39,685 bases of DNA, from the NCBI GenBank assembly GCA_020073005.1, contig JAIQFX010000063.1, forward strand, positions 1-39,685, given 5' to 3'. This stretch comes from Terriglobia bacterium (lineage in GTDB: Bacteria; Acidobacteriota; Vicinamibacteria; Vicinamibacterales; CAVVIG01). Shown here in pieces: positions 14,682 to 32,492 of the stretch. A program made the position numbers and the translations under genes. The notes under the pieces were generated by a model that was not told where the DNA came from, did no database searches, and saw nothing but the letters and a program-made list of their open reading frames with translations. Position 1 is the first letter of the stretch; each line of letters begins with the position of its first letter.

Positions 14682-14795
14682 GATTTGAGGAATCGAGGAT
14701 TTGGGGATTTGAGGATTTGAAGAGTTGATGAGTCGCAGGATTCTTCACTTCCTCAAATCCTCAAGTCCTCACATCCTCAACTTCATCCTCGTCCT
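14682..14795. repeat. Hairpin built of GATTTGAG tandem units
   Basis: The left arm (14682-14735) repeats GATTTGAG-like 8-mers (GATTTGAG, GAATCGAG, GATTTGGG, GATTTGAG, GATTTGAA). The right arm (14743-14795) is the complementary CTCAAATC series. The element begins five bases after the ankyrin stop. Its right arm is translated as the signal-peptide region of the next gene. Its position in a same-strand gap and its size would suit a terminator or attenuator. Confidence 0.8.
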
Positions 14796-16101
14796 CGCCC
14801 TCGGCGTCAGCGCCCTCAGCCAGCGGCAAGGTTTCTCCGGCTCCTTCAACCATCCCGCAATCCGCTATCTCGACACGCCCCTGCATGACGCGGCCACCGA
14901 ACTGAATCAGCGGCTCCAGGACGGCCGCGTCCAGCTGACGTTCGAACCGGGAAGCGGCTACCTGCCGTCCGTTCTCAAGGCGCTGAACATCGACGTCGAC
15001 TCGCAGGTCCTCGTCTATTCGGAAACGAGCGCCGACGCGCCGCGCATCTCGCGGCGGAATCCGCGGTCGATCTTCTTCAACGACACGACGGCCGTCGGCT
15101 GGGTCCGCGGCGGCGACGTCGAGATGGCCGCGCACGATCCGCGGCAGGGCGTCGTCTTCTACGTGCTGAAGCAGGTGAAGGCCGGGAAGCCGCGGCTCGA
15201 GCGCAGCCAGCAGTGCCTGCGCTGCCACATCTCGTGGGACACGTTCGGCGTGCCCGGCATGACGATGCTGAGCACCGGCCCGCCCGATCCGTCCGGCTAC
15301 GCGACCGGAGGGGCGATCGACGATCGCACGCCGTTCGCCGAGCGGTGGGGCGGGTGGTACGTGACGGGCAAGCCCGGCGCGATGCGTCACATGGGCAACG
15401 TCCCCGTCGAACTGCCGATGGCGCGCCGGCCGTCGCGGCCGCCGATCCTCGATTCGCTCGACGGCCAATTCGATCGCGCCGGCTATCTCTCCCCGCACAG
15501 CGACATCGTCGCGCTCATGGTGTTCGAGCATCAGACGCGCGTGATGAATCTGATCACGTACCTCGGGTGGGAGGCGCGGGTTGGACACGACGTCCGCGCC
15601 GTCGCGCGCGATCTCGCCGACGCGCTGTTGTTCACGGACGAAGCGCCGATCTCCGGGAAGATCGAGGGATCGTCCGGCTTCGCGGCACGATTCGCGGCGC
15701 TCGGCCCGCGCGATCATCTGGGCCGATCGCTCCGGGAGTTCGATCTCGAGCACCGGCTGATGCGGTATCCCTGCAGCTACATGATCTACACGCCCGCGTT
15801 CGACGCGCTGCCCGCGGCGGCGAAAGACGAGGTCTACGCGCGGCTGTGGGAGACGCTGTCTGGACCGGAGGGCCGCGCTGTCGTGGAGATCCTGAAGGAG
15901 ACGAAGCGAGACTTGCCTTCCTACTTCCTCACATCCCCAAATCCTCAACTCCTCAAATCTGTCTCAGTGATCCTCGAGCCGGTGTTTTTCCGCCTCGATG
16001 TCGATCGCGATGTTGTCGCGCTTCGCGACGGCGGCTTCCTTCTTCCGCTTCTTGTCGGCGGCGGCCTGCGTCTTCTCGGCGGAGCTGACGGCGAAGCCTG
16101 A
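14728..16101 (+). CDS. Unrecognised exported protein with one heme-c motif (CxxCH)
   Basis: This protein has about 457 residues from the ATG at 14728, with only a weak purine-rich ribosome site; a TTG at 14725 is in frame. A hydrophobic N-terminus (about residues 12-30) acts as a signal peptide and is encoded by the right arm of the preceding hairpin. One heme-c motif, CLRCH, is at 163-167, followed by WDTFGVPGMTMLSTGPPD and a WGGWYVTG motif. His and Met residues nearby could be axial ligands. The family appears next to DUF1592-type genes in related genomes as I recall, but I cannot name a domain. From about residue 395 the sequence (FLTSPNPQLLKS) is encoded by a second repeat half-copy, and the frame then runs 138 bases antisense over the zinc-ribbon gene. 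The native C-terminus was probably near residue 395. Confidence 0.75.
   Translation: MSRRILHFLKSSSPHILNFILVLALGVSALSQRQGFSGSFNHPAIRYLDTPLHDAATELNQRLQDGRVQLTFEPGSGYLPSVLKALNIDVDSQVLVYSETSADAPRISRRNPRSIFFNDTTAVGWVRGGDVEMAAHDPRQGVVFYVLKQVKAGKPRLERSQQCLRCHISWDTFGVPGMTMLSTGPPDPSGYATGGAIDDRTPFAERWGGWYVTGKPGAMRHMGNVPVELPMARRPSRPPILDSLDGQFDRAGYLSPHSDIVALMVFEHQTRVMNLITYLGWEARVGHDVRAVARDLADALLFTDEAPISGKIEGSSGFAARFAALGPRDHLGRSLREFDLEHRLMRYPCSYMIYTPAFDALPAAAKDEVYARLWETLSGPEGRAVVEILKETKRDLPSYFLTSPNPQLLKSVSVILEPVFFRLDVDRDVVALRDGGFLLPLLVGGGLRLLGGADGEA
15915..15962. repeat. Half copy of the GATTTGAG-type repeat (C/T-rich arm only)
   Basis: TCCTCA and AATCCTCA words repeat here as in the right arm at 14743-14795, but no complementary arm is present. 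It lies at the junction of the CxxCH gene and the convergent zinc-ribbon gene. It lacks stop codons in the CxxCH gene's frame, which explains that gene's read-through. Confidence 0.7.
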
Positions 16102-16224
16102 CAGGAGTTTCTTCAGGTCGCGGCCGTGACAGGACGGGCATTCAGGCGCGACCGTGTCGGCCGGACGCACGAGCGCTTCGAACTCGTGTCCGCACGACCG
16201 GCACTGGAAATCGTAAAGGGGCAT
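15964..16224 (-). CDS. FmdB-type small zinc-ribbon protein
   Basis: This 86-residue protein starts MPLYDFQCRSCGHEFE. Four cysteines in two CxxC pairs (C8/C11 and C29/C32) form a zinc ribbon of the FmdB/regulatory-protein family. The rest is a Lys/Arg/Ala-rich, probably helical tail typical of the family. The function of these proteins is poorly defined; some members were named as regulators of formamidase genes. The gene is monocistronic on the minus strand, divergent from the DUF4159 gene. Its 3' half is overlapped in antisense by the extended frame of the CxxCH gene. A GGAG lies ten bases before the ATG. Confidence 0.9.
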   Translation of the reverse strand: MPLYDFQCRSCGHEFEALVRPADTVAPECPSCHGRDLKKLLSGFAVSSAEKTQAAADKKRKKEAAVAKRDNIAIDIEAEKHRLEDH

Positions 16225-16299
16225 TCGGCGCTTTTCTCCCGAACGTGCTCAGGATACTCTGAGTCCCTCTGGAATCAACATCCGGGTAGAAGCGCACGC

Positions 16300-17148
16300 A
16301 TGAGCCTTCGCCGACGCACCGTCGTGACGACCGCCGCGCTCGTCGTCTGCCTGACGGCGGCGCTCGTCGCGCAGCGCCGCGGGTTCGGCGGCGGCTTTCG
16401 CGGATTCGGCGGCGGGCCCCGCGGTCCGTTTCACCAGTACCCGAACATCCCCTACGACGGCCGGTTCACGTTCGTCCGCGTGAAGTACCAGCACGCGCCC
16501 GGCGGCAACTGGTACAGCGGCTGGCCGGCGTGGAGCCACGGCTACCCGCTCGCCGAGTCCAACCTCATGAAGATCATGAACGAAGTGAGCTTCCTGAGCC
16601 CGCACACCGACGAGATCAACACGCTCGACATCGACGACCCCGGGATCACGAAGTACCCCATCGCGTACATCATCGAAGTCGACTGGTGGATGATGACCGA
16701 TCACGAGGCGGCGGCGCTGCGCGACTACATGCAGAAGGGCGGCTTCGTCATCATCGACGACTTCAAGCCGCAGCGCTTCCGCGGCGGGTTCGGCGCCGGA
16801 CCTGGCGGCTACGGCTACGGCACCGGCTGGGAAGTGTTCGAGGCCAACATGAAGCGCGTGATGCCGACGGCGAAGTTCGTCGACCTCGACCTCGACCATC
16901 CAATCTTCCACTCGTTCTTCGAGATCAAGTCGCTGGAGATTCCGCAGGCCTACGTCGCCGGCGAAGCGATCTTCCGCGGCCTCTACGAGGACAACGATCC
17001 GAAAAAACGCCTGCAGATGATCGTCAACTACAACACGGACGTGTCGCAGTTCTGGGAGTGGTCAGGGCTCGGACTGCGCCCGATCGACGACACGAACGAA
17101 GCCTACAAGTTGGGTGTGAACTACCTGATGTATGGCATGACTCACTGA
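16300..17148 (+). CDS. DUF4159 domain protein, exported
   Basis: This 282-residue protein has an N-terminal signal (about residues 1-24) and then a Gly/Phe/Arg-rich stretch (26-44: RRGFGGGFRGFGGGPRG). The DUF4159 core follows: FTFVRVKYQ, NLMKIMNEVSFL, IEVDWWMMTDHEAAALRDYM and KGGFVIIDDF, a GATase-like fold related to ThuA-type proteins. A second Gly-rich loop (about 161-175) interrupts the core. DLDHPIFHSFFEIKSLEIPQ and LQMIVNYNTDVSQFWEWS are typical C-terminal motifs. DUF4159 proteins usually sit with MoxR/DUF58/BatA-type genes, but none is present here, so its partner is unknown. I chose the ATG at 16300 because the upstream in-frame codons overlap the divergent zinc-ribbon gene. Confidence 0.88.
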   Translation: MSLRRRTVVTTAALVVCLTAALVAQRRGFGGGFRGFGGGPRGPFHQYPNIPYDGRFTFVRVKYQHAPGGNWYSGWPAWSHGYPLAESNLMKIMNEVSFLSPHTDEINTLDIDDPGITKYPIAYIIEVDWWMMTDHEAAALRDYMQKGGFVIIDDFKPQRFRGGFGAGPGGYGYGTGWEVFEANMKRVMPTAKFVDLDLDHPIFHSFFEIKSLEIPQAYVAGEAIFRGLYEDNDPKKRLQMIVNYNTDVSQFWEWSGLGLRPIDDTNEAYKLGVNYLMYGMTH

Positions 17149-17152
17149 GGGC

Positions 17153-17233
17153 GAATTGGGGAATTGAGTAGTTGGGTAATTGAGTAATCGTCTTCGATTA
17201 CCCAACTACCCAATCACCCAACTACCCAATTGA
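17153..17233. terminator. Hairpin of AATTGGGT/AATTGAGT units (copy A1) at a convergent junction
   Basis: The left arm is 17153-17190 and the right arm 17195-17233. The apex is perfect: GTAATCG, loop TCTT, CGATTAC. The arms repeat an 8-nt unit (GAATTGGG, GAATTGAG, TAGTTGGG, TAATTGAG). It fills the 89-bp gap between the DUF4159 stop and the quinoprotein stop, so it could end transcription from both sides. No U-run is present. Confidence 0.7.
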
Positions 17234-17237
17234 CCGC

Positions 17238-19457
17238 TTAGGGCAGAGCGTACGCGATGTATTCCCCCGTGTAGTTCCCGCCGCTGACCGCGACGACGAT
17301 GTACTGCTTGCCGTTGACCGAGTAGGTCATTGGCGATCCGCTCTGCGCGGCCGGCATGTACACCGCGCCGACTTCCTTGCCGGTCTGCTTGTCGTACGCG
17401 CGCAGCATTGCTCCCCGGGCGCCGCCCGGCCGTCCCGGCACAGTCGTCACCTGCGGATCGCCGACGACTACGAGCGTCTTCGTCACCATCAGACCCACAC
17501 TGCCGCTCTGTCCGGTCTTCTCCGGATAGGTGATGCCGAGGCGCTCGAGCGCCGCGCGGACGTTGTCCGGCGTGTCGCCGTGCGGGACTCTGAACTTGAT
17601 CGTCCCGGTGTTGAGGTCGATCGCGGTCAGCACGCCGTACGGCGGCTTCGCGATCGGCAAGCCCTCGAGGCCCTGCGTCAACCCGCCGCGTCCACCGCCG
17701 CCGCCGAATCCGGCGGGCGGCGCTGCTGGCGGCTCGCCACCCGGAGCCCCCGCCGCCGCGGCGCCGCCTGGTGCTCCTGCCGCTCCGGCGGGCAAGCCGC
17801 GTCCGGCGCCGCGACCGCCGGGACCGCCGCGACCGGCGCCGCGTCCGCGCTCACCCGACGGTGGCGGCTCGGCTTCCCAAATTGGAATGCGGTTCTTCGC
17901 CTGCGCCTCCGGGTTCACGATGCTCAGGTACGCCTCGCTGATATTCGTCGTCGTGACCGACGAGTTGTTCGCCTGGCCGTAGAACGTCGCCGTCTCCGGA
18001 TCGAACGACGCGCCAGGCCAGTTGATCCCGCCGACCGTGTTGCCGACGTTGATCGCGCCCTGCCATTTGCCGTTCTGCATCGTGCCCGGGATGAACGGCG
18101 TCGGCTCCCAGCGGTACTTCTTCAGGTTCTCGAGCGCCTGCGCGTGCAGCGCGGGCGTGAAGTCGATCACGTCGCTCTCGGCGAGGAACGCGCGCGAATA
18201 TGACGGCGGCTTGCTCGGAATCGGCTGCGTCGGCGACGTCTTTTCGCCGGGCACGTCGGTCTGCGGGACCGGCGTCTCCGGCATCGGCCAGATCGGCTGA
18301 CCGGTGATGCGATCGAACACGTACAGATAGGCCTGCTTGGTCGGCTGCGCGACGAGCTTGCGCGGACGGCCGTCGATCACGGCGTCGATCAGCAGCGGCG
18401 CCGACGAGATGTCGTGATCCCAGATCGGATGATGGACGAGCTGGAAGTGCCACTTGCGCACGCCGGTCTTGAGATCGACCGCGACGAGCGTCTCGCCGAA
18501 CAGGTTATTGCCCGGCCGGTTGCCGCCGTAGGTGTCGATGGTCGGCGACTCGACCGGGAGGTACACGAGACCCGCCTCCGGATCGACGGTGATCTGCGTC
18601 CACACGCCGTTGTTGCCGGTCCACGACCAGGATTCCTTTTCCCACGTGTCGTTGCCGAACTCGCCGGGCGTCGGAATCGTGTTGAAGCGCCAGATCTGTT
18701 TGCCGGTGCGCGCGTCGAACGCGCGGACGAGACCCTTGGCGTTCGTGCTGTAGCGGTAGCCGAGGCCTTCCGCCATCGACGAGCCGACGATGATCACGTC
18801 GCCGACCACGGCCGGCGTGGAGTGCAATCCGATCTCGCCGCGATCGAAATCGATCTGCTGGCCCTTGCCGATGATGACGCCTTCCTTCAGGTCGAGGATG
18901 CCGTCCTTGCCGAACGTCTTGACCGGCTGTCCGGTCTTCGCGTTCAGCTCGACGAGGCGATAGCCAATCGTGACGGCGACCACGCGGTCGTCGCCCTTGC
19001 CGTCGGTCCAGTAGGAGAGGCCGCGACCCGAGAGCTGGCGCGGCGCGACGGCGGCGCGCAGGCCCTCGTCCATGTTCCAGACCCACTTCAGCTCGCCGGT
19101 CCGGCCGTCGAGCGCGACGATCGATCGCCGCGAGCCGCCGGTCGTGTAGAGCATCCCGCCGATCATGATCGGCGTGCCTTCGAGCTTGTTCTCCGGGCGC
19201 GGCCCGAGGTTGTCGGTCTTGAACCGCCAGGCGACCTCGAGCGTGTTGAAGTTGCTCGCGTCGATCTGGTCGAGCGGCGAGTACTTGCTGCCGCGCAAAT
19301 CGGCGGTGTACATCGGCCACTCGCCGTTCTTCGTGCTCGGCATGCCGGACGCCGTCTGACCGGAGAGGATCGCCAGACGCGGCGCGAGGCGGGGCAGCGA
19401 GACAAACGTCCCGACGATCAGAATCACCAGACTGGGGAGGAACAGGGCGCGTTTCAT
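17238..19457 (-). CDS. PQQ-type quinoprotein dehydrogenase, soluble periplasmic
   Basis: This 739-residue protein begins at the ATG at 19457, with GGAG nine bases upstream. An N-terminal hydrophobic signal is followed by NGEWPMYTADLRGSKYSPLD, the usual opening of the eight-bladed quinoprotein propeller. Blade motifs such as GRTGELKWVWNM, DARTGKQIWRFN and DLKTGVRKWHFQLVHHPIWD support the glucose/membrane quinoprotein glucose dehydrogenase-like branch. IDLNTGTIKFRVPHGD and GNYTGEYIAYALP close it. There are no membrane helices like those of Gcd. A Gly/Ala/Pro-rich linker (about 530-595) interrupts the propeller and is not part of the family core. It follows the amidase gene by 65 bases on the same strand. 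PQQ dependence is inferred from family; no pqq genes lie in the window. Confidence 0.9.
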   Translation of the reverse strand: MKRALFLPSLVILIVGTFVSLPRLAPRLAILSGQTASGMPSTKNGEWPMYTADLRGSKYSPLDQIDASNFNTLEVAWRFKTDNLGPRPENKLEGTPIMIGGMLYTTGGSRRSIVALDGRTGELKWVWNMDEGLRAAVAPRQLSGRGLSYWTDGKGDDRVVAVTIGYRLVELNAKTGQPVKTFGKDGILDLKEGVIIGKGQQIDFDRGEIGLHSTPAVVGDVIIVGSSMAEGLGYRYSTNAKGLVRAFDARTGKQIWRFNTIPTPGEFGNDTWEKESWSWTGNNGVWTQITVDPEAGLVYLPVESPTIDTYGGNRPGNNLFGETLVAVDLKTGVRKWHFQLVHHPIWDHDISSAPLLIDAVIDGRPRKLVAQPTKQAYLYVFDRITGQPIWPMPETPVPQTDVPGEKTSPTQPIPSKPPSYSRAFLAESDVIDFTPALHAQALENLKKYRWEPTPFIPGTMQNGKWQGAINVGNTVGGINWPGASFDPETATFYGQANNSSVTTTNISEAYLSIVNPEAQAKNRIPIWEAEPPPSGERGRGAGRGGPGGRGAGRGLPAGAAGAPGGAAAAGAPGGEPPAAPPAGFGGGGGRGGLTQGLEGLPIAKPPYGVLTAIDLNTGTIKFRVPHGDTPDNVRAALERLGITYPEKTGQSGSVGLMVTKTLVVVGDPQVTTVPGRPGGARGAMLRAYDKQTGKEVGAVYMPAAQSGSPMTYSVNGKQYIVVAVSGGNYTGEYIAYALP

Positions 19458-19522
19458 GATGTTCTCCTGCGCTCGAGAAACGAAGGCGACGGCGTGAAGT
19501 CCGCGGCGATTATAGCGATCTT

Positions 19523-21319
19523 TCAGAGCGGCGGCGCGACGCGTTTCCTCGTCGCCTGCTCGAACGCGTAGGCAATCTCGATGAGCTTCGGCTCGCTGCA
19601 CTGCGCGCCGGTGAAGCCGACGCCGAACGGCGCGGGCTTCGCGTTGAAGCCCGCCGGCAGCGGCGGCCGCGGCGCGTTCGGGATCAGGCCGAACGGGACG
19701 ACGATGATCGGGTAGCCGGCGCGCGCGGCGAGCCCCGCGCCGCCGCCGCCCGGTGTGAGGATGGCGTCTAATCTTGAACCGCTCGATTGACTCGCGGGTC
19801 CCTTGAGCACACCGTCGATGCCGTCCGCCCGGCTCATCAGGCTGTCCTTCTTCATATCGGCGTCGTTGCGCGCGCGGTCGCGCTCGAGATCCATTTCGTC
19901 CGAGATATCCAGGCGCGACTGCCCGAACTTGATTGCGCCGGCCTTGACGTGCGCGAGGTTCCACTCGCGCAGTTCGGTCAGCGTCTTGACCGGCGCGGAC
20001 GGCCCGAGTGTCTTCAGCCACACATTGAAATCGCGCTTCATCCCGTACTTGAAGTTGACCGAGCAGTGGTCGTCCTTGCCCTTCGCCTGATCGGCACCCG
20101 CGCAGAAATCCCACGCGGCGAAGTTGTCCTTCGGATCTTTCGCCGCGAGGCTCGGGACGTCGGCCGGATCGACGACGATCGCGCCCTGCTGCTTCAGGAC
20201 GGCAATCGCGTCGGCCATCACGTTGGCTTGCTCGGCGTTGAGACCACCGCGTCCCGCAGTGATGCCGGTCGTCGGGTTGATGCCGTCGGGAGTGCCGGGC
20301 CGATCGCCTGTCAGCGTGATGCGGTCGTAGTAGTACGCGCGCGGGATGCCGATGCGGGCACCTTTCAATCCACCCGCGTTTAAGAATTTGGTGTAGTCGC
20401 GTCCCGGCGGCGGCACGCACGTCGCCGTGGCCGGATCGTGCGGATCGGGCGCCGGACTCTCGAGCGCGCCGAGCAGAATCGCCGCGTCCGTCACGGTGCG
20501 CGTCATCGGTCCGGCGGTGTCGTGATCCGCCGTGATCGGAATCATGCCGTAGCGGCTGATGCGGCCGATCGTCGGACGGATGCCGACGAGCATGTTCGCG
20601 TTCGACGGGCTGATCACCGAGCCGCCGGTATCGGTGCCGACGTTGGCCGCCCACAGATTCGCCGCCGTGCCGATGCCTGAACTCGATCCGCCGGTCTGCA
20701 GCACGGGGCGGCCGTCGAACGTCGCCTCGCGCGGATCGCGACGCGGATCGTACGGGTTGAAGCCGAAGCCGCCGACGGCGTTGTAGTTCCCCGGCATCGG
20801 GTCCGGGTCGCCGGCGACCCAGTTGGCGAGCTCGGTGAGTCCGGTCTTGGCGATGATGATCGCGCCGGCGTCGCGCAGATTCTTCGTCAGCGTGGCTTCG
20901 TACGGCGGCGTGTAGCCCGCGAACGCGAGCGCGCCGCCCGTCGTCGGCAGGTTGGTCGTGTGAATGTTGTCCTTGAGCGCGATCGGAATGCCGTGCAGCG
21001 GCCCGCGCAGCTTACCCTGCGCGCGTTCACGATCCAGCTGCGCCGCGTCCTCGAGCGCGCGCGGGTTGACGATGAGCGCGGCGTGCACGCGGTTCTCGTA
21101 GAGACCGATGCGCGTGAGGTAGCGCGTGACCAGCTCGCGCGACGTCAGGCGTCCGGCCGCCATCGCGTCCCGCATCTGCGGAATCGTGGCCTCGATCACC
21201 TCGAACGCCGGCGGGCGGGCCGCGGCCGCGCGGCGCCTCGCGGCCGGCCGGTGTTGCCCGCTCAGCGAGAGCGTGGCGACCAGGACGCCCGCAACCATCA
21301 GAATCACTGTCGTTTTCAT
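19523..21319 (-). CDS. Amidase signature (AS) family hydrolase, exported
   Basis: This protein has about 598 residues from the ATG at 21319, which has GAGGAA upstream; a start five codons earlier is in frame. A signal peptide covers about residues 1-22. The AS-family catalytic set is present. The lysine lies in PIALKDN. The serine-rich signature reads QTGGSSSGIGTAANLWAANV and continues GTDTGGSVISPSN, giving the cis-Ser and the nucleophile. PTIGRISRYGMIPITADHDT then matches the amidase substrate-channel region. Members hydrolyse amides, from peptide amides to indoleacetamide. Export and the long N-terminus recall the periplasmic peptide amidase group. It is the first gene of an amidase-quinoprotein pair and is divergent from the copper/heme gene at 21523. 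Confidence 0.92.
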   Translation of the reverse strand: MKTTVILMVAGVLVATLSLSGQHRPAARRRAAAARPPAFEVIEATIPQMRDAMAAGRLTSRELVTRYLTRIGLYENRVHAALIVNPRALEDAAQLDRERAQGKLRGPLHGIPIALKDNIHTTNLPTTGGALAFAGYTPPYEATLTKNLRDAGAIIIAKTGLTELANWVAGDPDPMPGNYNAVGGFGFNPYDPRRDPREATFDGRPVLQTGGSSSGIGTAANLWAANVGTDTGGSVISPSNANMLVGIRPTIGRISRYGMIPITADHDTAGPMTRTVTDAAILLGALESPAPDPHDPATATCVPPPGRDYTKFLNAGGLKGARIGIPRAYYYDRITLTGDRPGTPDGINPTTGITAGRGGLNAEQANVMADAIAVLKQQGAIVVDPADVPSLAAKDPKDNFAAWDFCAGADQAKGKDDHCSVNFKYGMKRDFNVWLKTLGPSAPVKTLTELREWNLAHVKAGAIKFGQSRLDISDEMDLERDRARNDADMKKDSLMSRADGIDGVLKGPASQSSGSRLDAILTPGGGGAGLAARAGYPIIVVPFGLIPNAPRPPLPAGFNAKPAPFGVGFTGAQCSEPKLIEIAYAFEQATRKRVAPPL

Positions 21320-21468
21320 GGATTCCTCACTCACGCCCGAATCGCCCGGATTCTACACACAGCGTCGGGTTTGGCGGTTGTCGTCGGCGCGCGCGGCGCT
21401 CTGGTGCCGGTGACGTCCGGAGACGATAAAGACGACAAAGATATGGTCGATCCGCTTCCGCATTCAGG

Positions 21469-21474
21469 TAAAAT
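21469..21474 (+). promoter_or_regulatory. Candidate -10 box (TAAAAT) for the cytochrome/copper monooxygenase gene
   Basis: TAAAAT stands out in an otherwise GC-rich 203-bp divergent gap (21320-21522) and lies 49 bases before the GTG start. No convincing -35 box is present at the usual distance. The rest of the gap shows nothing else I can interpret. Confidence 0.35.
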
Positions 21475-21522
21475 GTGCCGAAATTGGGACGGAGCTCTGT
21501 GAAACAAACGCAGGAGGGGCTC

Positions 21523-22902
21523 GTGATTGAACGTATGTTCAAAACAATGTTCGTAGCGGTCGCCGTCATGGCGATTGCGGTGCCGTCCTTTGCCGCCGAC
21601 ACGGCCAAGCCCGTCACCTTCTCCAAGGACGTCGCGCCGATCTTCCAGGCGAAGTGCCAGGAGTGCCACCAGCCGAATTCGATCGCGCCGATGTCGCTGA
21701 TCACGTTCCAGGACGCGCGGCCGTGGGCCCGCTCGATCAAGGAGCGCGTCTCCACACGCCAGATGCCGCCGTGGCACATCGACCGCAGCGTCGGCGTGCA
21801 GCACTTCAAGAACGACATGTCGCTCAGCGACGACCAGGTGGACACGATTGTCCGCTGGGTCGACGCCGGCGCGCCGCAGGGCGATCCGAAGGATCTGCCG
21901 CCGGCGAAGCCGCTCGTGACCGACAACGAGTGGAAGGGCAAGCGCGACGGGTTCGGCGCGCCGGACCTCGTCGTCAAGTCGTCCGAGTACACGATGCCGG
22001 CCGAGCACCAGGACGTCTGGTACCGCCCGATGAGCGACATCCCGCTCACCGAACCGCGCTGGGTGAAGATGGTCGAGATTCGTCCGACCAACCTCAAGGC
22101 GCGCAAGATCATTCATCACTCGATCGCGTATCTCGTGCTGAACAACGATCCCGAGGCCGTCAACACCGGCACGGCGAACGGACCGGATCGCTTCGGCGGC
22201 GCGGACGACCTCGTCAATCGTCGTCCGCAGCTGATGGAATGGGCGATCGGCAAGGGCTACGATCTGTTCCGTCCGGGCACCGGCAAACTGCTCGTGCCGG
22301 GCGAGAAGATCGCGTGGGACCAGCACATTCACGCCGTGGGCGAGGAAGTCACGGGCGGCTCTGAAATCGGCATCTGGCTCTACAAGAAGGGCGAGGAGCC
22401 GAAGAAGCGCAGCTACCTGATCGGCTTCACCGGCATCGACCGCACGAAGATGCTCGACATCCCGCCGAACTCGATGGCGATGACCGAAGGCTTCACGGTC
22501 CTGAAGGAGAACACGCTCATCGAGAACTTCCAGCCGCATTTCCATCTCCGCGGCAAGGCGATGCAGGTCGAGGCGATTCTGCCCGACGGCGGCCGCCAAA
22601 TCCTGAGCTACGTGGGCAACTTCAACTTCAACTGGATGACGAACTACATCTACGACGACGACTACGCGCCGCTGCTCCCGAAGGGCACGGTCATCCACGT
22701 GTCGGCGTGGTACGACAACACCAAGGCCAACAAGAACAATCCGGATCCGGACCAGTGGGTGGGCTACGGCGACCGCACGGTCGACGAGATGGCGCACGCC
22801 TGGATGAACGTCACCTACTTCACCGACGCCGAGTACAAGGCACTGCAGGCCGAGCGCAAGGCGAAGCTGGCGAAGCAGACCGACGACGAGAAACAGCAGT
22901 GA
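21523..22902 (+). CDS. Cytochrome c fused to a PHM-like copper type II monooxygenase domain
   Basis: This 459-residue protein starts at the GTG at 21523, five bases after GGAGG; an ATG at 21535 is the alternative. The signal peptide ends near residue 25. The N-terminal heme-c site is CQECH (45-49), followed by MPPWH, a likely axial-ligand region. The C-terminal part resembles the two-domain copper fold of peptidylglycine alpha-hydroxylating monooxygenase (PHM) and dopamine beta-monooxygenase. It has HH at 198-199 (CuH pair), HIH at 268-270, HFHLRGK at 339-345 (matching the HxHxxGK of CuM) and a TVDEMAH motif placing M423 as the CuM methionine. Such a protein could hydroxylate a substrate in the periplasm with electrons entering through the heme rather than ascorbate; that is inference. 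The next gene overlaps its stop. Confidence 0.85.
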   Translation: MIERMFKTMFVAVAVMAIAVPSFAADTAKPVTFSKDVAPIFQAKCQECHQPNSIAPMSLITFQDARPWARSIKERVSTRQMPPWHIDRSVGVQHFKNDMSLSDDQVDTIVRWVDAGAPQGDPKDLPPAKPLVTDNEWKGKRDGFGAPDLVVKSSEYTMPAEHQDVWYRPMSDIPLTEPRWVKMVEIRPTNLKARKIIHHSIAYLVLNNDPEAVNTGTANGPDRFGGADDLVNRRPQLMEWAIGKGYDLFRPGTGKLLVPGEKIAWDQHIHAVGEEVTGGSEIGIWLYKKGEEPKKRSYLIGFTGIDRTKMLDIPPNSMAMTEGFTVLKENTLIENFQPHFHLRGKAMQVEAILPDGGRQILSYVGNFNFNWMTNYIYDDDYAPLLPKGTVIHVSAWYDNTKANKNNPDPDQWVGYGDRTVDEMAHAWMNVTYFTDAEYKALQAERKAKLAKQTDDEKQQ

Positions 22903-23756: not shown

Positions 23757-23759
23757 CGC

Positions 23760-23854
23760 GAATTGGGTAGTTGAGTAATTTGGGAATCGGGTAATCGACT
23801 GTGGAATTGAACAATCGATTACCCAGTTACCCAATCACCCAACTACCCAATTGA
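23760..23854. terminator. Hairpin of AATTGGGT-type units (copy A2) at a convergent junction
   Basis: The left arm is 23760-23798 and the right arm 23815-23854. The ten bases next to the loop pair perfectly: GGGTAATCGA (23789-23798) with TCGATTACCC (23815-23824). The unit and layout are the same as at 17153, with a larger loop. It fills the 104-bp gap between the stop codons of the unknown exported protein and the TonB receptor. Confidence 0.72.
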
Positions 23855-23860
23855 CCCCGT

Positions 23861-26767: not shown

Positions 26768-26775
26768 TCCTCATG

Positions 26776-26802
26776 TATGACTCTTTAAGACACTTAAGTC
26801 AA
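26776..26802. promoter_or_regulatory. Imperfect inverted repeat and candidate promoter before the TonB receptor
   Basis: GACTCTTTAA and TTAAGTC face each other around GACAC, forming an imperfect palindrome a few bases upstream of the TonB start. Read on the minus strand, TTGACT followed 17 bases later by CATACA could be a promoter overlapping it. A repressor site is plausible but unproven. Confidence 0.35.
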
Positions 26803-26900
26803 CAAAAGTCTTTATGACGCCATAACAGACCGATCGACTCCGGCATGACTCCTCTCGCCCTAAAACGTTGTGCCGCAATGGGTTCGACCCCACTGATAAC

Positions 26901-26929
26901 TTGACACGGTTCTTCGCAGTATTTAGCCT
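26901..26929 (+). promoter_or_regulatory. Candidate sigma-70-like promoter for the ADOP permease
   Basis: A perfect -35 box TTGACA (26901-26906), a 17-bp spacer and TAGCCT (26924-26929) stand about 28 bases before the permease ATG. A similar TTTACT-N17-TAGGCT pair occurs before the first NHL gene. Confidence 0.5.
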
Positions 26930-26956
26930 CGCCGACATGGATTGGGCCCCGCGCAC

Positions 26957-29584
26957 ATGATTCGGGACCTGCGCCTCGCCGTGCGCATGCTGCTCCACGC
27001 GAAGAGCTGGACGGCAGTGATCGTCGCCTCGCTGGCGCTCGGCATCGGCGCGAACACCGCGCTTTTCGGCGCCGTGAACGGTCTGCTGCTGAAGAAAATC
27101 TCAGTGAAGGATCCGGACACGCTGGTGCGGCTGCGTTGGGCAGGCCGCAACCAGATGTCGAACAACTCCAGTGATTACGGCTACTCGTCACCGGATGCCG
27201 GCCGGAACGTGCGCTCTGCCTTCTCGTATCAGATGTTCCGCACGGCGTTCGCGCCCAGAGCGCAGTCGTTTCCGGGTACCGTGCGCGCGACCTTCTCGTA
27301 CCCGATGTACCAGCAGTTCCTCGCGGACAACCGGACGATGACCGACGTGCTGGCGTGCGCGCCGTTCGGCCGCGTCAACGTCGCCGTGGACGGCCATGCA
27401 GAGATCGCGACGGCGCTCATCGCGTCGGGCAACTACCACGAGGTGCTCGGCGCGACGGCTGCGCTCGGCCGCACGATTCAGCGCGACGACGACCAGCCGG
27501 CTGCGTCCGCCATCGCCGTGGTCAGCCACCAATACTGGCGGACCCGGTTCGGCGGCGACCCCGGGATCATCGGGAGGAGCGTCCGCATTAACAATGTCCC
27601 GGTCACGATCGTCGGCGTGACCGCACCGGGCTTCATCGGCATCCAGCAGGCCATCAGCGATCCGCCGGACGTCACGGTTCCGCTCGCGCTCGATCCGCAG
27701 CTCGCCACGGGGCAGGCGTCGTCGGCCGTCAGCCAGCCACGGCTGAAGCAGCCGACGACCTGGTGGCTGCAGGTTATGGGGCGCCTGAAGCCGGGCGTCA
27801 CGCCGCAGCAGGCGCAGGGCAACCTCGGCGGCGTCTTCCAGCAGACGGCGCGCGCGGGGATGGACGCGTATCTGGCGTCGCTGAGCGAGGCGTCGCGCGC
27901 GCTCTCCATGAACCAGAACCGGACGGTGGTGCCCCAGTTGCTCGCCGACTCCGGGAGCCGCGGCGTCTACGACGTGAACTCGACCGACCTGCGCGCCGTG
28001 ACGATCCTCAGCATCGTCGTCGTGCTCGTGCTGCTGATTGTCTGCGCGAACGTCGCGAACCTGCTGCTGTCGCGCGCCGCGGCGCGCCAGAAAGAGCTGT
28101 CCGTACGCCTCTCGCTCGGCGCGACGCGCGCCCGGCTGATCCGCCAGCTCCTGACGGAGAGTCTGGTGCTCGCGGCGATCGGCGGCGCGTTGGGCGTGCT
28201 CGTGGGCTACTGGGGCCAGCAGCTGCTGCCGGGTGCGCCGGGCCAGACCGCCGGTCTCGACTGGCGTGTGCTCGCGTTCGTCGCGGCCGTGACGACAGCG
28301 ACCGGCGTTGTCTTCGGCATCGCGCCGGCGCTGCGCGCGACCGGCGTCAACGTGAGCGCGGGGCTGAAGGAGAACAGCCGGAGTCTCGCCGGCACGCGCA
28401 GCGTCCTGAGCCGATCGCTGCTCGTCGCGCAGGTCGCCATCTCCCTGGTGCTGTTGATCGGCGCCGGTTTGTTCCTGCGGACGCTGCAGAATCTCCGGCA
28501 GGTGAACGTCGGCTTCGATCCGCGAAATCTGGTGTTGTTCCGCGTGAGCCCGCAGCTGAATCGGTACGACGACACGCGGACCGCGGCGCTGTACGGCGAG
28601 ATGATGGACCGTCTTCAGGCCGTGAGCGGCGTGCGCGCGGTGGGCCTTTCACAGCCGGCAATGCTGTCGGGCGGCGTCAGCACGACCGGCGCGTTCGTGC
28701 AGGGACGCCAGTACACGCCGGGCGATCAGAACGGCACGGAGAACGAGATCTATCGGGTGATGGTGTCGTCGAGCTTCTTCGAGACGCTGAACGTCCCCGT
28801 GCTGCTCGGACGCGGCTTCACGCCGCGCGACGCCACCGGCGCGCCGCCGGTCGTCGTCATCAACGAGACGGCCGCGAAGAAATTCTTCCCCGGGGAATCG
28901 CCGATCGGGCGACGGTTCGGAACGACGCCCGAAGACAGCGGGAAGCTCGAGGTCGTCGGCGTGCTGCGCGATATCCGCTACAACAGCGTGCGCGATCCCG
29001 CACCGCCGACGATGTACGTGCCGTACCTGCAATCACGGCTGGGGGGCGGCGCCGTTGTCGAAGTGCGGACCGCGGGGGATCCGCTCGCCGCGATGGGCGC
29101 GATCCGCGAGGCCGTCCGTCAGGTCGATCCCGATCTGCCGCTGATGGACATGACGACGCAGCTGGAGCAGGTCGAGCGGCGGTTCCTGCAGGAGAAGCTG
29201 TTCGCGCAGGCGTACGCGCTCTTCGGCGCCGTCGCGCTGGCGCTCGCCGCGGTGGGACTGTTCGGCTTGATGTCCTATAGCGTGGCGCGGCGCACGAACG
29301 AGATTGGCATTCGCATGGCGCTCGGCGCGCAGCGCATCGACGTGCTGCGCCTGGTGATGCGCGAGTCCATGATGCTCGTGGCCGCGGGCGTCGCGATCGG
29401 ACTGGGCGTGGCCGTCGCGGCCAGCCGGCTCGTCGGGAGCCTGTTGTTCGGCCTGGCGTCCACCGACGTCGTCACGATGGCCGGCGCGATGATCGTGATG
29501 ATCGCCGTGTCGGCGTTCGCGGGCTACCTGCCCGCGCGGCGGGCTTCACGCGTCGATCCGATCGTCGCGCTGCACTATGAATAG
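26957..29584 (+). CDS. ADOP-type ABC permease (MacB/FtsX duplicated, no ATPase domain)
   Basis: This 875-residue inner-membrane protein belongs to the Acidobacterial duplicated orphan permease group. The N-terminus (MIRDLRLAVRMLLHAKSWTA) and first membrane segment with LALGIGANTALFGAVNGLLL are diagnostic. A MacB periplasmic core domain follows (about 70-300). The first FtsX block has ILSIVVVLVLLIVCANVANL and LSVRLSLGATRARLIRQLLT. A second periplasmic domain comes next, then a second FtsX block ending LPARRASRVDPIVALHYE. No ATPase gene is adjacent, which is normal for this group. I chose the ATG at 26957; an upstream TTG at 26942 is in frame but less likely. Related proteins may export small molecules or act in stress response with an ATPase encoded elsewhere. 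It is divergent from the TonB receptor. Confidence 0.93.
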   Translation: MIRDLRLAVRMLLHAKSWTAVIVASLALGIGANTALFGAVNGLLLKKISVKDPDTLVRLRWAGRNQMSNNSSDYGYSSPDAGRNVRSAFSYQMFRTAFAPRAQSFPGTVRATFSYPMYQQFLADNRTMTDVLACAPFGRVNVAVDGHAEIATALIASGNYHEVLGATAALGRTIQRDDDQPAASAIAVVSHQYWRTRFGGDPGIIGRSVRINNVPVTIVGVTAPGFIGIQQAISDPPDVTVPLALDPQLATGQASSAVSQPRLKQPTTWWLQVMGRLKPGVTPQQAQGNLGGVFQQTARAGMDAYLASLSEASRALSMNQNRTVVPQLLADSGSRGVYDVNSTDLRAVTILSIVVVLVLLIVCANVANLLLSRAAARQKELSVRLSLGATRARLIRQLLTESLVLAAIGGALGVLVGYWGQQLLPGAPGQTAGLDWRVLAFVAAVTTATGVVFGIAPALRATGVNVSAGLKENSRSLAGTRSVLSRSLLVAQVAISLVLLIGAGLFLRTLQNLRQVNVGFDPRNLVLFRVSPQLNRYDDTRTAALYGEMMDRLQAVSGVRAVGLSQPAMLSGGVSTTGAFVQGRQYTPGDQNGTENEIYRVMVSSSFFETLNVPVLLGRGFTPRDATGAPPVVVINETAAKKFFPGESPIGRRFGTTPEDSGKLEVVGVLRDIRYNSVRDPAPPTMYVPYLQSRLGGGAVVEVRTAGDPLAAMGAIREAVRQVDPDLPLMDMTTQLEQVERRFLQEKLFAQAYALFGAVALALAAVGLFGLMSYSVARRTNEIGIRMALGAQRIDVLRLVMRESMMLVAAGVAIGLGVAVAASRLVGSLLFGLASTDVVTMAGAMIVMIAVSAFAGYLPARRASRVDPIVALHYE

Positions 29585-29589
29585 AGATC

Positions 29590-29691
29590 GGATTGGGTAG
29601 GTGAGTAGTTGGGTCATTGAGTAATCGCCTCGCCGTTATAGCGGTCACGGCAATTACCCACCTACCCAATTACTCCATTCCCCAATTCATT
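29590..29691. terminator. Hairpin of AATTGGGT-type units (copy A3) at a convergent junction
   Basis: The left arm 29590-29626 repeats GATTGGGT, AGGTGAGT, AGTTGGGT and CATTGAGT. The right arm 29651-29691 is the complementary CCCAAT/CCCACC series. It lies between the ADOP stop and the DUF4440 stop. The DUF4440 stop codon (29687-29689) falls inside the right arm. Confidence 0.7.
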
Positions 29692-30127
29692 GGCAGGTGC
29701 ATCCTTTATCAAACACGATCTTCCAGGCTCCGCCGTTCTCGCGACGCCAGACTGAATTGAACGTGCCGACGCGCGTCCCGGCCGGATCGCGGACGGGGCC
29801 GCTGCTCAGCGCGAGCGTGCCCGAGTCGAGCACTTCCACGCGATCCGGTTCCCACGAGAACGGCGCCTGCGGGGCGTCGTAGAACCCCTTCCACGCCGCC
29901 GCGACTGCCGCCTTCCCGCGCAACGTCTGGGCATCGCCCATGAAGATCGTGTCGTCGGCCAAAAATGAGACGAACGCCGCATGATTGCGATCGGCCATCG
30001 TCTTCGCGAAGGCGCGCTCGGCCTCGCGCACCTGACCGGCGAGTGCCGTCACGTCCGTCTGTGTCTGCGCATGGCCAACCGCAACGCTGAGTCCGGCCGT
30101 CAGGAGTAGGAGCAATCCACGCTTCAT
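29687..30127 (-). CDS. DUF4440/SnoaL-like (NTF2-fold) exported protein
   Basis: This 146-residue protein has a signal peptide over residues 1-20 (ends GHAQ), followed by an NTF2-like domain of the DUF4440 type. It shows VREAERAFAKTMADRNHAAF, then FLADDTIFMGDAQTLRGKAA, WEPDRVEVLDSGTLALSSGP and FNSVWRRENGGAWKIVFDKG. These domains form small cone-shaped barrels used as ketosteroid isomerase-like enzymes or as binding proteins. No catalytic residues can be assigned with certainty. The tail GCTCQ contains two cysteines near the end. It is divergent from the first NHL gene, sharing an 86-bp regulatory gap. Function unknown beyond the fold. Confidence 0.9.
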   Translation of the reverse strand: MKRGLLLLLTAGLSVAVGHAQTQTDVTALAGQVREAERAFAKTMADRNHAAFVSFLADDTIFMGDAQTLRGKAAVAAAWKGFYDAPQAPFSWEPDRVEVLDSGTLALSSGPVRDPAGTRVGTFNSVWRRENGGAWKIVFDKGCTCQ

Positions 30128-30145
30128 GCGCGCATTGTAATCGTC

Positions 30146-30174
30146 TTTACTTTGCGTAAGGGAGCCGCTAGGCT
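30146..30174 (+). promoter_or_regulatory. Candidate promoter for the first NHL gene
   Basis: TTTACT (30146-30151), 17 bases, then TAGGCT (30169-30174) stand about 40 bases before the start codon. The match to the consensus is partial but resembles the pair before the ADOP permease. Confidence 0.4.
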
Positions 30175-30213
30175 TCGCCTACCTTTCTTTATTACGAGCG
30201 GAGGAGGAAACGC

Positions 30214-31275
30214 ATGATGCGACGTTTCAGCGCCGGCGTCGTCGTGGCTCTATTGCTTTTCGGCGGACGGGCGTTCACGCAGAATGTCTCGGGGCCTGCG
30301 AAGGCGAGGGCGACCACTCCAGAGATCCCGTTCGACTCCGTGCCCAACTTCTTCAAGCTGCCGGCCGGCCTCTACATGGGCGAGGGCGTCGGCGTCGCGA
30401 CCAATTCCAAGGGGCACGTGTTCGTCTACACGCGCAGCGGCGAGACGCGTCTGTTCGAATTCGATCAGACCGGCGCCTTCGTGAAGGAGTTCGGCGCGGG
30501 CAGCTACGGCATGTCCTTCGCCCACTCCGTGCGCGTCGACAAGGACGACAACGTCTGGGCGGCCGACGAGGGCTCGAACGTGATCATGAAGTTCAGCCCC
30601 GACGCGAAGCTGCTGATGGTGCTCGGCAAGCGGCCCGATCCGCTCGAGCAGCTGTCGCTGATGCCGGGCGGCGGCCAGTACTCGGGCGCCAACAAGCCGT
30701 ATTCGTTTCATCGCGAGACCGACATCGGCTGGGATCCGCAGGGCAACATCTTCGTGAGCGACGGCTACGGCGACTCGCGTGTCGTGAAGTACGACAAGAA
30801 CGGCCGCTTCATCAAGTCCGTCGGCACGCGCGGCAACGGCCCGATGCAGTTCAACACGCCGCACTCCCTCGCCGTCGACGCCAAGGGTCTGGTCTATGTG
30901 GCCGACCGCGGTAACTCGCGCATCCACGTGCTCGACAACGACCTCAACGCGAAGGCGATGTACGACAACGTCGGCGCGCCGTGGGCGGTCTGCATCTCGC
31001 AGGGGCCGCATCAATACCTGTACAGCTCCAACTCGTTCCCGACCGGGAACAACTTCGACCAGGCGTCGATGACCGGCGAGGTCTACAAGATGGAACTGGA
31101 CGGCACGGTGCTTGGGCGCTTCGGCAAGGCCGGGCACGCGTTCAAGGAGTTCAGCGCCATCCACATGATGGATTGCCGCAACCCGAACGAAGTCTACGTG
31201 GCCGAGATCACGGAATGGCGCGTGCAGAAAATCCTGCTGCATCCGCCGTCCACCACCACCGCGGCGGCAAGGTAA
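30214..31275 (+). CDS. NHL-repeat six-bladed beta-propeller, exported (copy 1)
   Basis: This 353-residue protein is preceded by a strong GGAGGAGG site. The signal peptide ends near residue 22. NHL-type blades are visible: GVGVATNSKGHVFVYTRSGE, SVRVDKDDNVWAADEGSNVI, DIGWDPQGNIFVSDGYGDSR, SLAVDAKGLVYVADRGNSRI and a closing blade near IHMMDCRNPNEVYVAEITEW. The fold matches the lyase domain of peptidyl-amidating enzymes and many binding propellers. It could bind a ligand or act as a lyase, but I cannot tell which. It forms a tandem pair with the next gene (10-bp gap), sharing the ATNSKGHVFVYTR blade. Confidence 0.92.
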   Translation: MMRRFSAGVVVALLLFGGRAFTQNVSGPAKARATTPEIPFDSVPNFFKLPAGLYMGEGVGVATNSKGHVFVYTRSGETRLFEFDQTGAFVKEFGAGSYGMSFAHSVRVDKDDNVWAADEGSNVIMKFSPDAKLLMVLGKRPDPLEQLSLMPGGGQYSGANKPYSFHRETDIGWDPQGNIFVSDGYGDSRVVKYDKNGRFIKSVGTRGNGPMQFNTPHSLAVDAKGLVYVADRGNSRIHVLDNDLNAKAMYDNVGAPWAVCISQGPHQYLYSSNSFPTGNNFDQASMTGEVYKMELDGTVLGRFGKAGHAFKEFSAIHMMDCRNPNEVYVAEITEWRVQKILLHPPSTTTAAAR

Positions 31276-31285
31276 GGGGGCGTTC

Positions 31286-32413
31286 ATGAAGAACATGAAG
31301 CGTTTCATTCACGTCTTCGCCGGTGCCGCGGCGCTGGCCGCGGGCGTCTCGCTCTTCGCGCAGACGGCGCCTGACATCAACTACGACGCGAACGCCGACG
31401 TCCTGCAGCTGCCCTCGGGTACGTACCTCGGCGAAGTCGCCGGCGTCGCGACCAACTCGAAGGGGCACGTGTTCGTCTACACGCGGACCGGCCACGCGGT
31501 GGCGACGCTCGGCGACGAGCGGACGTTCTATCACCTCGGATCGCGCCTGTTCGAGTTCGATCAGAACGGCAGGTACGTGAAGGAGATCGGCCAGGGCGTC
31601 TACGCGGTCAACTTCGCGCAGCAGGTGCGCGTCGATCCGCAGGACAACATCTGGATCGTCGACGCCGGATCCAACCAGATCGTGAAATTCGACGCTGACG
31701 GCCGATACGTGCTCGTGCTCGGCCGCAAGCCGGAGAACATCAACGTGCGTCCGGGGCCGGGCGTGCCGGCGCGCGGCGGCGTGATTCCGGAAGCCACGGC
31801 CGCGGGCGGCCGAGGCGGCGGCGGAGAAGGCGGCGGACGCGGCGGCGGTCGCGGAGCGCCTGGCGCCGGGATTAACGGCGACGGCTTCAGTTATCCGGCG
31901 GACGTGACGTGGGATCGCGCCGGCAATGTCTACGTCGCCGACGGATTCGGGACCAACAACCGCATCGCGAAGTTCACCAAGGACGGCGACTTCGTCAAGA
32001 CCTGGGGCCAGACCGGATCCGGACAAGGACAGTTCAACAAGATCCGCGGGATTGCCGCCGACGCGGCGGGCAACCTCTACGTGGCCGACTCCGGCAACAA
32101 CCGCATCCAGGTGTTCGACACGGATGGCACGTTCAAGTCGCAGATCGCCAACGTCGGCACGCCGCAGGCCATCTGCGTCTCAGGCGGATCGACCCAGTAC
32201 CTCTACAGCTCCAACTCGAACGATCCCGAGAGCATGGATCACGGCGAGATCTACAAGGTCCGGCTGAACGGCCAGATCGTCGGCAAGTTCGGCAAGGCCG
32301 GCAAGATGCCGAAGGAATTCGGCATGGTCAATTCGATCGACTGCCGGACCGAAACCGACCTCTGGGTCGGCGAGGTCTGGAACTGGCGCGCGCAGAAAGT
32401 CACGCTGAAGTGA
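31286..32413 (+). CDS. NHL-repeat propeller, exported (copy 2)
   Basis: This 375-residue paralog of the preceding gene is preceded by AGGGGG; an ATG three codons later is possible. The signal peptide ends near residue 27. The blades include AGVATNSKGHVFVYTRTG, QVRVDPQDNIWIVDAGSNQI, DVTWDRAGNVYVADGFGTNN, GIAADAAGNLYVADSGNNRI and SIDCRTETDLWVGEVWNW. A Gly/Arg-rich insert (about residues 161-195) replaces the short loop present in copy 1. It is probably in the same transcript as copy 1. It ends at a convergent junction with a hairpin. Confidence 0.92.
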   Translation: MKNMKRFIHVFAGAAALAAGVSLFAQTAPDINYDANADVLQLPSGTYLGEVAGVATNSKGHVFVYTRTGHAVATLGDERTFYHLGSRLFEFDQNGRYVKEIGQGVYAVNFAQQVRVDPQDNIWIVDAGSNQIVKFDADGRYVLVLGRKPENINVRPGPGVPARGGVIPEATAAGGRGGGGEGGGRGGGRGAPGAGINGDGFSYPADVTWDRAGNVYVADGFGTNNRIAKFTKDGDFVKTWGQTGSGQGQFNKIRGIAADAAGNLYVADSGNNRIQVFDTDGTFKSQIANVGTPQAICVSGGSTQYLYSSNSNDPESMDHGEIYKVRLNGQIVGKFGKAGKMPKEFGMVNSIDCRTETDLWVGEVWNWRAQKVTLK

Positions 32414-32414
32414 A

Positions 32415-32491
32415 GGGCAGGTAGGGCGGGTAGGCAGGCGGGGAAGTGCATTTCCCCACCTGCCTTACCTGCCCCACCCGCCTCACCAGCC
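32415..32491. terminator. GC-rich hairpin of GGCAGGTAG units at a convergent junction
   Basis: The left arm (32415-32445) repeats GGCAGGTAG, GGCGGGTAG and GGCAGGCGGGG. The right arm (32452-32491) reads CCCCACCTGCC, TTACCTGCC, CCACCCGCC. It occupies almost the whole gap between the stop codons of NHL copies 2 and 3. The layout is as in the AATTGGGT hairpins but with a different unit. Confidence 0.72.
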
Positions 32492-32492
32492 C

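Follow-up and report, generated by a model that had tools for sequence, protein, structure and literature searches.

The 39,685-nt stretch of Terriglobia bacterium DNA considered here (assembly GCA_020073005.1, contig JAIQFX010000063.1, positions 1 to 39,685; below, the window) is part of a 5.86-Mb draft genome in 179 contigs, and carries among its genes six hairpins of one common plan: an array of a G/A-rich short word, a loop, and a C/T-rich array that complements the first. Four of the six (17153, 23760, 29590, and 32415) lie in gaps between convergent genes, where they fill the space from stop to stop to within 16 nt. According to our analysis, these hairpins belong to a large class of short palindromes in many unrelated words, which stand directly behind stop codons, nearly always with the G-rich arm first, and differ between congeneric species. 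The hairpins of the window are listed below; arrays bear the letter G or C according to which strand of the word is the G-richer.

1978..2055, no strand: hairpin between two minus-strand genes, the weakest of the six; score 12.5, 0/200 shuffles; RNA fold -38.9/-35.2 kcal/mol
1982..2008, plus strand: G-rich left arm of the 1978-2055 hairpin, word CGCAGAGAA (group F4); array score 20.1
14682..14780, no strand: hairpin, word GATTTGAG; arms 14685-14723 and 14742-14780; score 21.5
17153..17232, no strand: hairpin, word TTGGGTAA, filling the gap between convergent stops 17148 and 17238; score 19.5 (17154-17231)
23760..23853, no strand: hairpin, word TTGGGTAA, at a convergent junction; score 24.5 (23761-23852)
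29590..29687, no strand: hairpin, word TTGGGTAA, at a convergent junction; score 15.0 (29592-29670); arrays 29592-29625 (G) and 29651-29687 (C)
32414..32492, no strand: hairpin, word GGCAGGTAG, filling the gap between convergent stops 32413 and 32493; score 17.0 (32416-32482); arrays 32414-32446 (G) and 32454-32492 (C)

The inverted-repeat scores of the six range from 12.5 to 24.5, and in each case none of 200 first-order shuffles of the neighbourhood reached the observed score; the predicted RNA folds of both strands amount to -35 to -61 kcal/mol. A sequence-only reading of this DNA had described six hairpins on one plan, and all of them are present, the one at 1977 being the weakest. Its statement that the repeat unit differs between elements holds in part: four words occur among the six, namely TTGGGTAA (17153, 23760, and 29590), GATTTGAG (14682), GGCAGGTAG (32415), and CGCAGAGAA (1977), so that three elements use the same word. 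Rfam gave no match to the window at the gathering score.

The wider sample comprised 1.55 Mb of the genome in 81 stretches, the window and 80 others; 40 of the added stretches (20 + 11 + 9) lie on contigs known beforehand to hold TTGGGTAA, and the remaining 40 were unpicked. Genes were called with a simple codon-usage caller of our own making, which is not an annotation. The genome-wide search for inverted repeats that the sequence-only reading had proposed revealed a class far larger than the window: a gapped scan of the sample found 128 hairpins with a score of at least 16, of which 46 lie in called coding sequence; shuffled sequence gave 20. They were sorted into 70 unit hairpins, built of short words, 39 resembling repetitive extragenic palindromic (REP) sequences, and 19 others. 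The arms of the unit hairpins have a GC content of 50%, compared with 67% for the genome, and 63 of the 70 unit hairpins lie outside called genes.

Arrays were then counted for 18 degenerate words of 7–9 nt (15 families once four related words were merged), chosen by hand from hairpins of the first scans, a list that misses words found only as single arms and is biased to hairpins. Among junctions whose stretch with margins measured up to 900 nt, arrays were found at 217 of 1201, 306 arrays in all with both strands scanned, and shuffled junctions yielded none. By origin of the stretch, array-bearing junctions numbered 126/627 in picked stretches, 84/548 in unpicked ones and 7/26 in the window; judged by the unpicked stretches, about one junction in six of this genome carries such an array. 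One junction holds four arrays of related words, and at 130 of the 217 array junctions there is a single arm only. The single arms of the window are as follows.

385..410, minus strand: single arm, word ATTTCAG; array score 16.8; no partner
2664..2692, plus strand: single arm, word ATTGCGG; array score 24.4; no partner
6012..6042, minus strand: single arm, word ATTGCGG, directly 3' of the stop of the minus gene called 6043-7734; array score 17.2; no partner
15926..15959, minus strand: single arm, word GATTTGAG, C-rich on the plus strand; array score 27.1; no partner

Two further observations concern the surroundings of the GATTTGAG arms. At 14728-14790, the right arm of the 14682 hairpin forms the first residues of an open reading frame (ORF) that starts at 14728, ahead of an apparent signal peptide, and here a repeat arm may have been turned into coding sequence. 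At 15964-16224, a small minus-strand ORF, whose product we take to be an FmdB-like zinc ribbon, overlaps the final part of the long ORF 14725-16101 in antisense; in view of this overlap, an earlier end of the plus gene, close to the single arm at 15926-15959, is possible.

The two arms of an element are strongly ordered. At 86 junctions with two arrays, 76 showed the same word in the order G then C, 6 showed mixed words in that order, 3 were mixed GG, 1 was mixed CC, and none was C then G; from the word frequencies, a same-word share of 6.9% is expected. In the unpicked stretches, 22 of 25 two-array junctions were same-word G-then-C. These counts, together with the 18 words of the sample, bear out the earlier claim of many words rather than one fixed sequence. 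Of the 70 unit hairpins, 65 have a left arm in which G exceeds C, and 2 have one in which C exceeds G; this lean is weaker in the REP-like hairpins (27 vs 8, of 39) and absent in the others (8 vs 8, of 19). A palindromic element in the G-first order has the consequence that an RNA of either strand starts with the G-richer arm. Nothing in our analysis is explained less well than this order.

The controls refute the idea that these are ordinary simple-sequence repeats or chance inverted repeats of a GC-rich genome. The arms are indeed low-complexity arrays, as that idea would have it, but the empty shuffled junctions, the GC content of the arms in a genome so much richer in GC, and an arm order and pairing far from random leave it a negligible probability.

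The position of the elements is equally definite. The distance from the edge of a unit hairpin to an adjacent stop codon has a median of 1 nt, with 65 of 79 edges within 12 nt, whereas the median to an adjacent start codon is 14 nt. Per kilobase of intergenic DNA there are 4.33 arrays between convergent genes, 2.4–2.5 between tandem genes, and 0.63 between divergent genes, a density by junction type as for elements bound to 3' ends or tolerated only there, like REPs. Where a tandem junction holds one array only, its G-rich strand coincides with the coding strand in 60 cases and with the other strand in 34 (p = 0.0095).

This position could be the work of selection for bidirectional transcript-end hairpins: any sequence that folds on both strands behind a stop codon would serve, so that words change while the hairpin is kept, and its role might lie in ending transcription, in blocking 3' exonucleases, or in insulating convergent genes. 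The closeness to stop codons, an array density that tracks the number of adjacent 3' ends, and the strong folds predicted for both strands of the six window elements all speak for such a role. Against it stands the scarcity of T-runs, at least five T in the 8 nt behind the hairpin being found at 7 of 126 ends; the same count rules out intrinsic terminators with a T-run.

Both selection on the hairpin and the copying of one arm into the other, the two causes offered by the sequence-only reading, would be expected to leave their mark on how well the arms of one element match each other. When the limits of the arms were set by the word consensus and not by the pairing between them, the match score was 0.623 between an element's own arms, 0.647 between arms of different elements of the same family, and 0.18 between families (74 pairs, 15 families). 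In 20,000 within-family permutations the own-arm value was low (upper-tail p = 0.9992), own arms scoring above others in 2 of 15 families, and the array lengths of the two arms were uncorrelated within families (r = -0.04, 70 pairs). Thus, the claim that each element's arms match each other is correct at the level of the word and fails below it: own arms do no better than other arms inside a family, and markedly better than arms drawn from different families. The outcome that the sequence-only reading had named as refuting it is therefore found inside families, and not between them. When arms were delimited by their pairing, own arms scored higher in 9 of 11 families, nominally significant (p < 0.05) in families A, F4, and B; the values for own and other arms were 0.687 and 0.641 in A, 0.724 and 0.710 in F, 0.669 and 0.516 in F4, and 0.606 and 0.455 in M, and own arms were lower in G and D. 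The excess was therefore small in the largest families (A and F) and larger in some small ones. We give this test less weight, since cutting arms by their own pairing favours own arms.

Changes between relatives and mismatches within stems were counted as well. Ten hairpins orthologous between this genome and a congener (G001, introduced below) differ at 34 pairs, including 4 double changes at paired positions, 3 of which keep the pair; this comparison for compensatory changes, also suggested in the sequence-only reading, offers too few cases to decide. At tandem junctions, the sense strands of 39 elements contained 43 G.U and 46 A.C mismatches. Selection on an RNA stem should favour G.U, and the absence of a wobble bias gives no sign of it. 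We conclude that the arms are largely interchangeable inside a family, which fits the copying of whole palindromes from a pool; continuing arm copying and strong selection on pairing do not fit it. Overall, neither compensation specific to an element nor the copying of arms is supported by the arm-match, ortholog-change, and mismatch tests, the pairing-delimited test leaning the opposite way with the bias just described. For the transcript-end hairpins, the want of clear compensation and of a wobble bias is likewise a point against.

Arm copying, in which fold-back or template-switch replication writes one arm into the other, would produce complementarity without selection. The common word of both arms at 76 of 86 two-array junctions and the pairing-delimited result agree with it; the word-delimited result and the uncorrelated arm lengths do not. 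SbcD (TIGR00619) had no match in this genome, nor in the six other sampled genomes of its order and class, which is compatible with tolerated palindromes, yet 71 of 80 genomes of the phylum likewise lack a match over the cut-off and 9 have one, so that the absence of SbcD does not discriminate as a cause of palindrome richness. All considered, arm copying as a continuing process is disfavoured and appears highly improbable, although new families could be founded by it.

Two congeners, G001 and G002, mostly 81–90% identical to this genome over long aligned pieces, allowed junctions of up to 1000 nt (stretch with margins) to be compared between orthologous gene pairs. Against G001, with words and REPs counted at a lenient threshold, 119 orthologous junctions comprised 51 with an element in neither genome, 22 with the same family, 17 with different families, 12 with an element here only, and 17 with one in G001 only; a stricter threshold and the merging of related words gave 53, 22, 13, 15, and 16, respectively. 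The recurrence of different families at one junction, with REPs counted (13 cases), had an odds ratio of 2.87 (p = 0.03, and p = 0.06 without gaps shorter than 15 nt); for words alone (5 cases) the odds ratio was 2.73 (p = 0.14). Examples of such replacement are given below.

L046:8875: hairpins in both genomes, of AATTAGG here and of GAAAACT in G001
L046:9399: TTGGTCAT hairpin here, no hairpin in G001, and one of CACAAAG type in G002
L059:14126: GAAGGAA hairpin here; REP pair in G001
L043:7362: GGCAGGTAG hairpin here; in G001 a REP pair, followed (by eye) by the C-arm of GGCAGGTAG

One and the same gene end thus holds a different family from species to species. Even so, the statistics fall short of proving that the site demands a hairpin; permissive sites would look alike. 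For transcript-end hairpins, the substitutions (for instance at L046:8875 and L059:14126, and the 13 cases with REPs) are favourable; they lose significance for words alone and, with REPs, when the short gaps are removed. A further point against is that elements of G001 also sit between same-strand genes that touch or overlap in this genome. Where the element is found in G001 only, the gap here is at most 5 nt or the genes overlap in 6 of 16 cases with REPs counted and in 4 of 13 for words alone, by our own gene calls. In G002 (locus L112), the ortholog of the window gene 16300-17148 has a single TTGGGTAA arm behind its stop, where the window has the 17153 hairpin, and the end of a different neighbour gene comes next.

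The same class was followed beyond the genus. Of 80 genomes sampled evenly from the phylum, this one included, 3 contain GTCGTTG (as a 22-mer), 3 contain TTGGGTAA, and 17 contain CACGGAGGA. A distant genome, G121, is rich in both GTCGTTG (35) and TTGGGTAA (14), and the other 78 of the 80 have at most 2 matches of either. Among the places listed for GTCGTTG in G121, we counted nine close plus/minus pairs, all with the plus strand first, which, judged by positions, suggests that the G-first plan is kept there. Among the matches listed for CCACGGAGGACACGGAGG are contigs titled Acidobacteria, Planctomycetota, Chloroflexi, Gemmatimonadetes, Spirochaetota and Treponema, Proteobacteria, Verrucomicrobiota, and others. 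In thirteen genomes picked from among these matches, the word has 3 to 316 matches each, and its backward control none. So wide a distribution of a single 9-nt word is hard to obtain from selection on shape alone, and in this respect too the transcript-end explanation is weakened.

From the CCACGGAGGACACGGAGG matches, 110 loci were fetched; the partner-arm count used 80 of them, with 8 matches near an end skipped, and the counts of polarity and outer ends used all. Of 83 CCACGGAGGACACGGAGG matches with 200 nt on each side, 29 had the complementary arm only downstream and 1 only upstream, 1 had it on both sides, and 52 had none. The CACGGAGGA family has a constant outer unit, CCACGG...CCGTGG; the complementary outer end was present on 37 of 39 CACGGAGGA C-arms, a result partly built in, as the search pattern contained the left end and arms had to pair. 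The CACGGAGGA hairpins were G-first in 29 cases and C-first in 3 (n = 32). Periodic hairpins of other words were G-first in 6 and C-first in 3 (10 in all), so that this sample does not establish a polarity for words other than CACGGAGGA, and non-periodic hairpins were G-first in 23 and C-first in 6. In eight genomes of other phyla (about 274 kb) unit hairpins were few, except in the Acidobacteria genome G048, whose two stretches were chosen at matches; the class is accordingly dense in some genomes and thin in others.

Three individual hairpins of these loci are worth recording. In a Kiritimatiellales locus (L183, 2114-2250), a periodic hairpin has its C-rich arm first, and in a Geomonas locus (L304), two period-7 hairpins at 9961-10071 and 14944-15049 carry the A/G-rich strand in the right arm.

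Hairpins may also be nested. In G011 and G048, one hairpin sits in the loop of a second that is built of a different word; G001 has a word hairpin that encloses another palindrome:

L314, 12802-12967: nested hairpin, one word outside and another word or palindrome in the loop
L128, 1287-1409: nested hairpin of the same description
L144, about 18100-18420: nested hairpin of the same description

The explanation that we favour, with a confidence hardly above even, is that of many families of short dispersed palindromic repeats, REP- or MITE-like (miniature inverted-repeat transposable element) in behaviour, which would be copied whole by some factor and settle behind stop codons. Each family would have its own degenerate word of 7–9 nt, with a few copies in a G-rich left arm and the complement in a C-rich right arm. 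From the arm statistics we infer that the unit copied around the genome is the whole palindrome and not the single arm, own arms matching no better than other arms of the family, as is expected when whole elements are copied from a pool. The palindromes would come to rest, or survive, directly 3' of stop codons, most densely between convergent genes, in the places where they harm least or help some. There, they would supply the RNA of either strand with a hairpin just behind the coding part, which might be used as a barrier at the transcript end. Over time, elements would disappear, shrink to single arms, and give way to other families. We count in favour of dispersed palindromes the number of array junctions against none in the shuffled control, the predominance of same-word pairs in G-then-C order, the occurrence of CACGGAGGA with its special outer unit in many phyla, the presence or absence of elements at orthologous junctions of congeners, the nested hairpins, and the REP-like density by junction type.

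Several points weigh against this explanation. No mobilising gene was found for the unit families: the four Y1_Tnp genes of the genome have REP-type palindromes at their borders. A target-site duplication was not readable in 12 aligned site pairs, some of which aligned uncleanly. For transposed elements, a varying number of tandem units is unusual, and single arms alone occupy 130 of the 217 array junctions. The G-first order across unrelated words is left unexplained by dispersed palindromes; as it also appears weakly in the REP-like hairpins (27 vs 8) and in the non-periodic hairpins of other genomes (23 vs 6), a general cause is possible. The transcript-end role, which ranks second to dispersed palindromes and is compatible with them, seems to us rather unlikely. 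With respect to the earlier reading, then, neither strong selection on pairing nor continuing arm-to-arm copying receives support from the word-delimited arm test and the missing wobble bias.

As a tentative extension, clearly short of an even chance, dispersed palindromes may form a widespread and so far unrecognised class of elements defined by plan and not by sequence: palindromes in many short words, nearly always G-first and behind stops, maintained in some genomes by a trans-acting factor. The joint abundance of GTCGTTG and TTGGGTAA here and in G121, and their patchiness elsewhere, is the pattern that such a factor would give. If this is true, a good share of the intergenic DNA in some genomes of several phyla consists of repeat families that annotation and RNA libraries miss, since no family has a fixed sequence. 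The arm order and the position at stop codons call for a common cause, be it the mode of spread or the way transcripts end, and the arm order may matter to RNA polymerase, to exonucleases, or to a copying process.

Among known systems, REPs are the natural first comparison. They are described as high-copy palindromes between tandem and convergent genes, often touching or supplying a stop codon, whose families have a consensus with a GTAG or CGTC tag, the GTAG type often accompanied by a gene for a REP-associated tyrosine transposase (RAYT) (PMC3733652). Since that account already reports REPs as supplying stop codons between tandem or convergent genes, position alone is not new. Like REPs, bacterial interspersed mosaic elements (BIMEs), and REP doublets forming hairpins (REPINs), the unit hairpins are short palindromes in many copies, mostly outside genes and at 3' ends. 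They differ in their degenerate tandem words, in that no tag was noticed, and in that no RAYT gene adjoins them among the four examined.

These four RAYT-like Y1_Tnp genes (L291-L294) score over the Pfam cut-off in this genome. REP-type palindromes (R1b, R2, and GGTCCGACC) border 4/4 of them and unit families 0/4; at a distance of about 1.3 kb from one gene there is an M-type hairpin. Their borders are as follows.

L291: GGTCCGACCCC palindromes
L292: GGGGACGGGAGTC palindromes
L293 and L294: CTGAAAGG-type REPs

The unit hairpins could be degenerated REP or REPIN elements once mobilised by RAYT proteins, as the genome holds both these genes and REP-like families, and REPs and unit hairpins substitute for each other at some orthologous junctions. 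Such a descent is, in our view, highly unlikely: the Y1_Tnp genes are bordered by other palindromes than the unit hairpins, and no GTAG or CGTC tag was noticed, by eye, at the foot of the listed unit hairpins, whereas the R2 and R4 repeats of these genomes begin with GTAG. Compared with MITEs, CACGGAGGA has a constant outer unit, and the 12 aligned, partly unclean site pairs showed no readable target-site duplication. The cyanobacterial short tandemly repeated repetitive (STRR) sequences and the repeats of the tRNA-Leu intron consist of degenerate heptamer units as well; these pair into a stem inside the intron or form direct repeats, and are not known as a multi-word intergenic class.

The open-licence literature yielded no description of a multi-word class of this kind, which is weak evidence of absence. 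In Beggiatoaceae and cyanobacteria, the heptamer TAACTGA forms direct repeats, with one inverted case reported, mostly before start codons (PMC4679880). The unit arrays resemble them in being intergenic, near gene ends, and patchy across phyla, and differ in that the unit hairpins are inverted and stand behind stops.

The closest published case is that of the G-rich GGGNATC heptamers of Xanthomonas and Nostoc, which share this architecture and use a single word (Rehm et al., 2015; PMC4692102). These intergenic tandem units have the G-rich strand as the coding strand within 50 bp of a stop and as the non-coding strand near starts, are under-represented between divergent genes, and form closely spaced inverted pairs in "convergent orientation" (70 and 75 in two Xanthomonas strains); close relatives share most of the sites, and G-quadruplexes were argued for. 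The unit arrays are likewise short, G-rich, and tandem, with the G strand in sense behind stops (60 vs 34). In contrast to the one word type per genome described there, this genome has 18 words, with same-word pairs at 76 of the 217 array junctions, and different families occupy some orthologous junctions of congeners. Most words here also differ from the quadruplex case in lacking G-tracts, of which a quadruplex would take four: by our count, 13 of the 18 have no run of three G in any scanned form, and TTGGGTAA arrays are often broken by GAG units. What is new here, therefore, is the many words per genome, an arm order held across words, arms interchangeable within families, family differences at orthologous gene ends, and one hairpin shared by many phyla.

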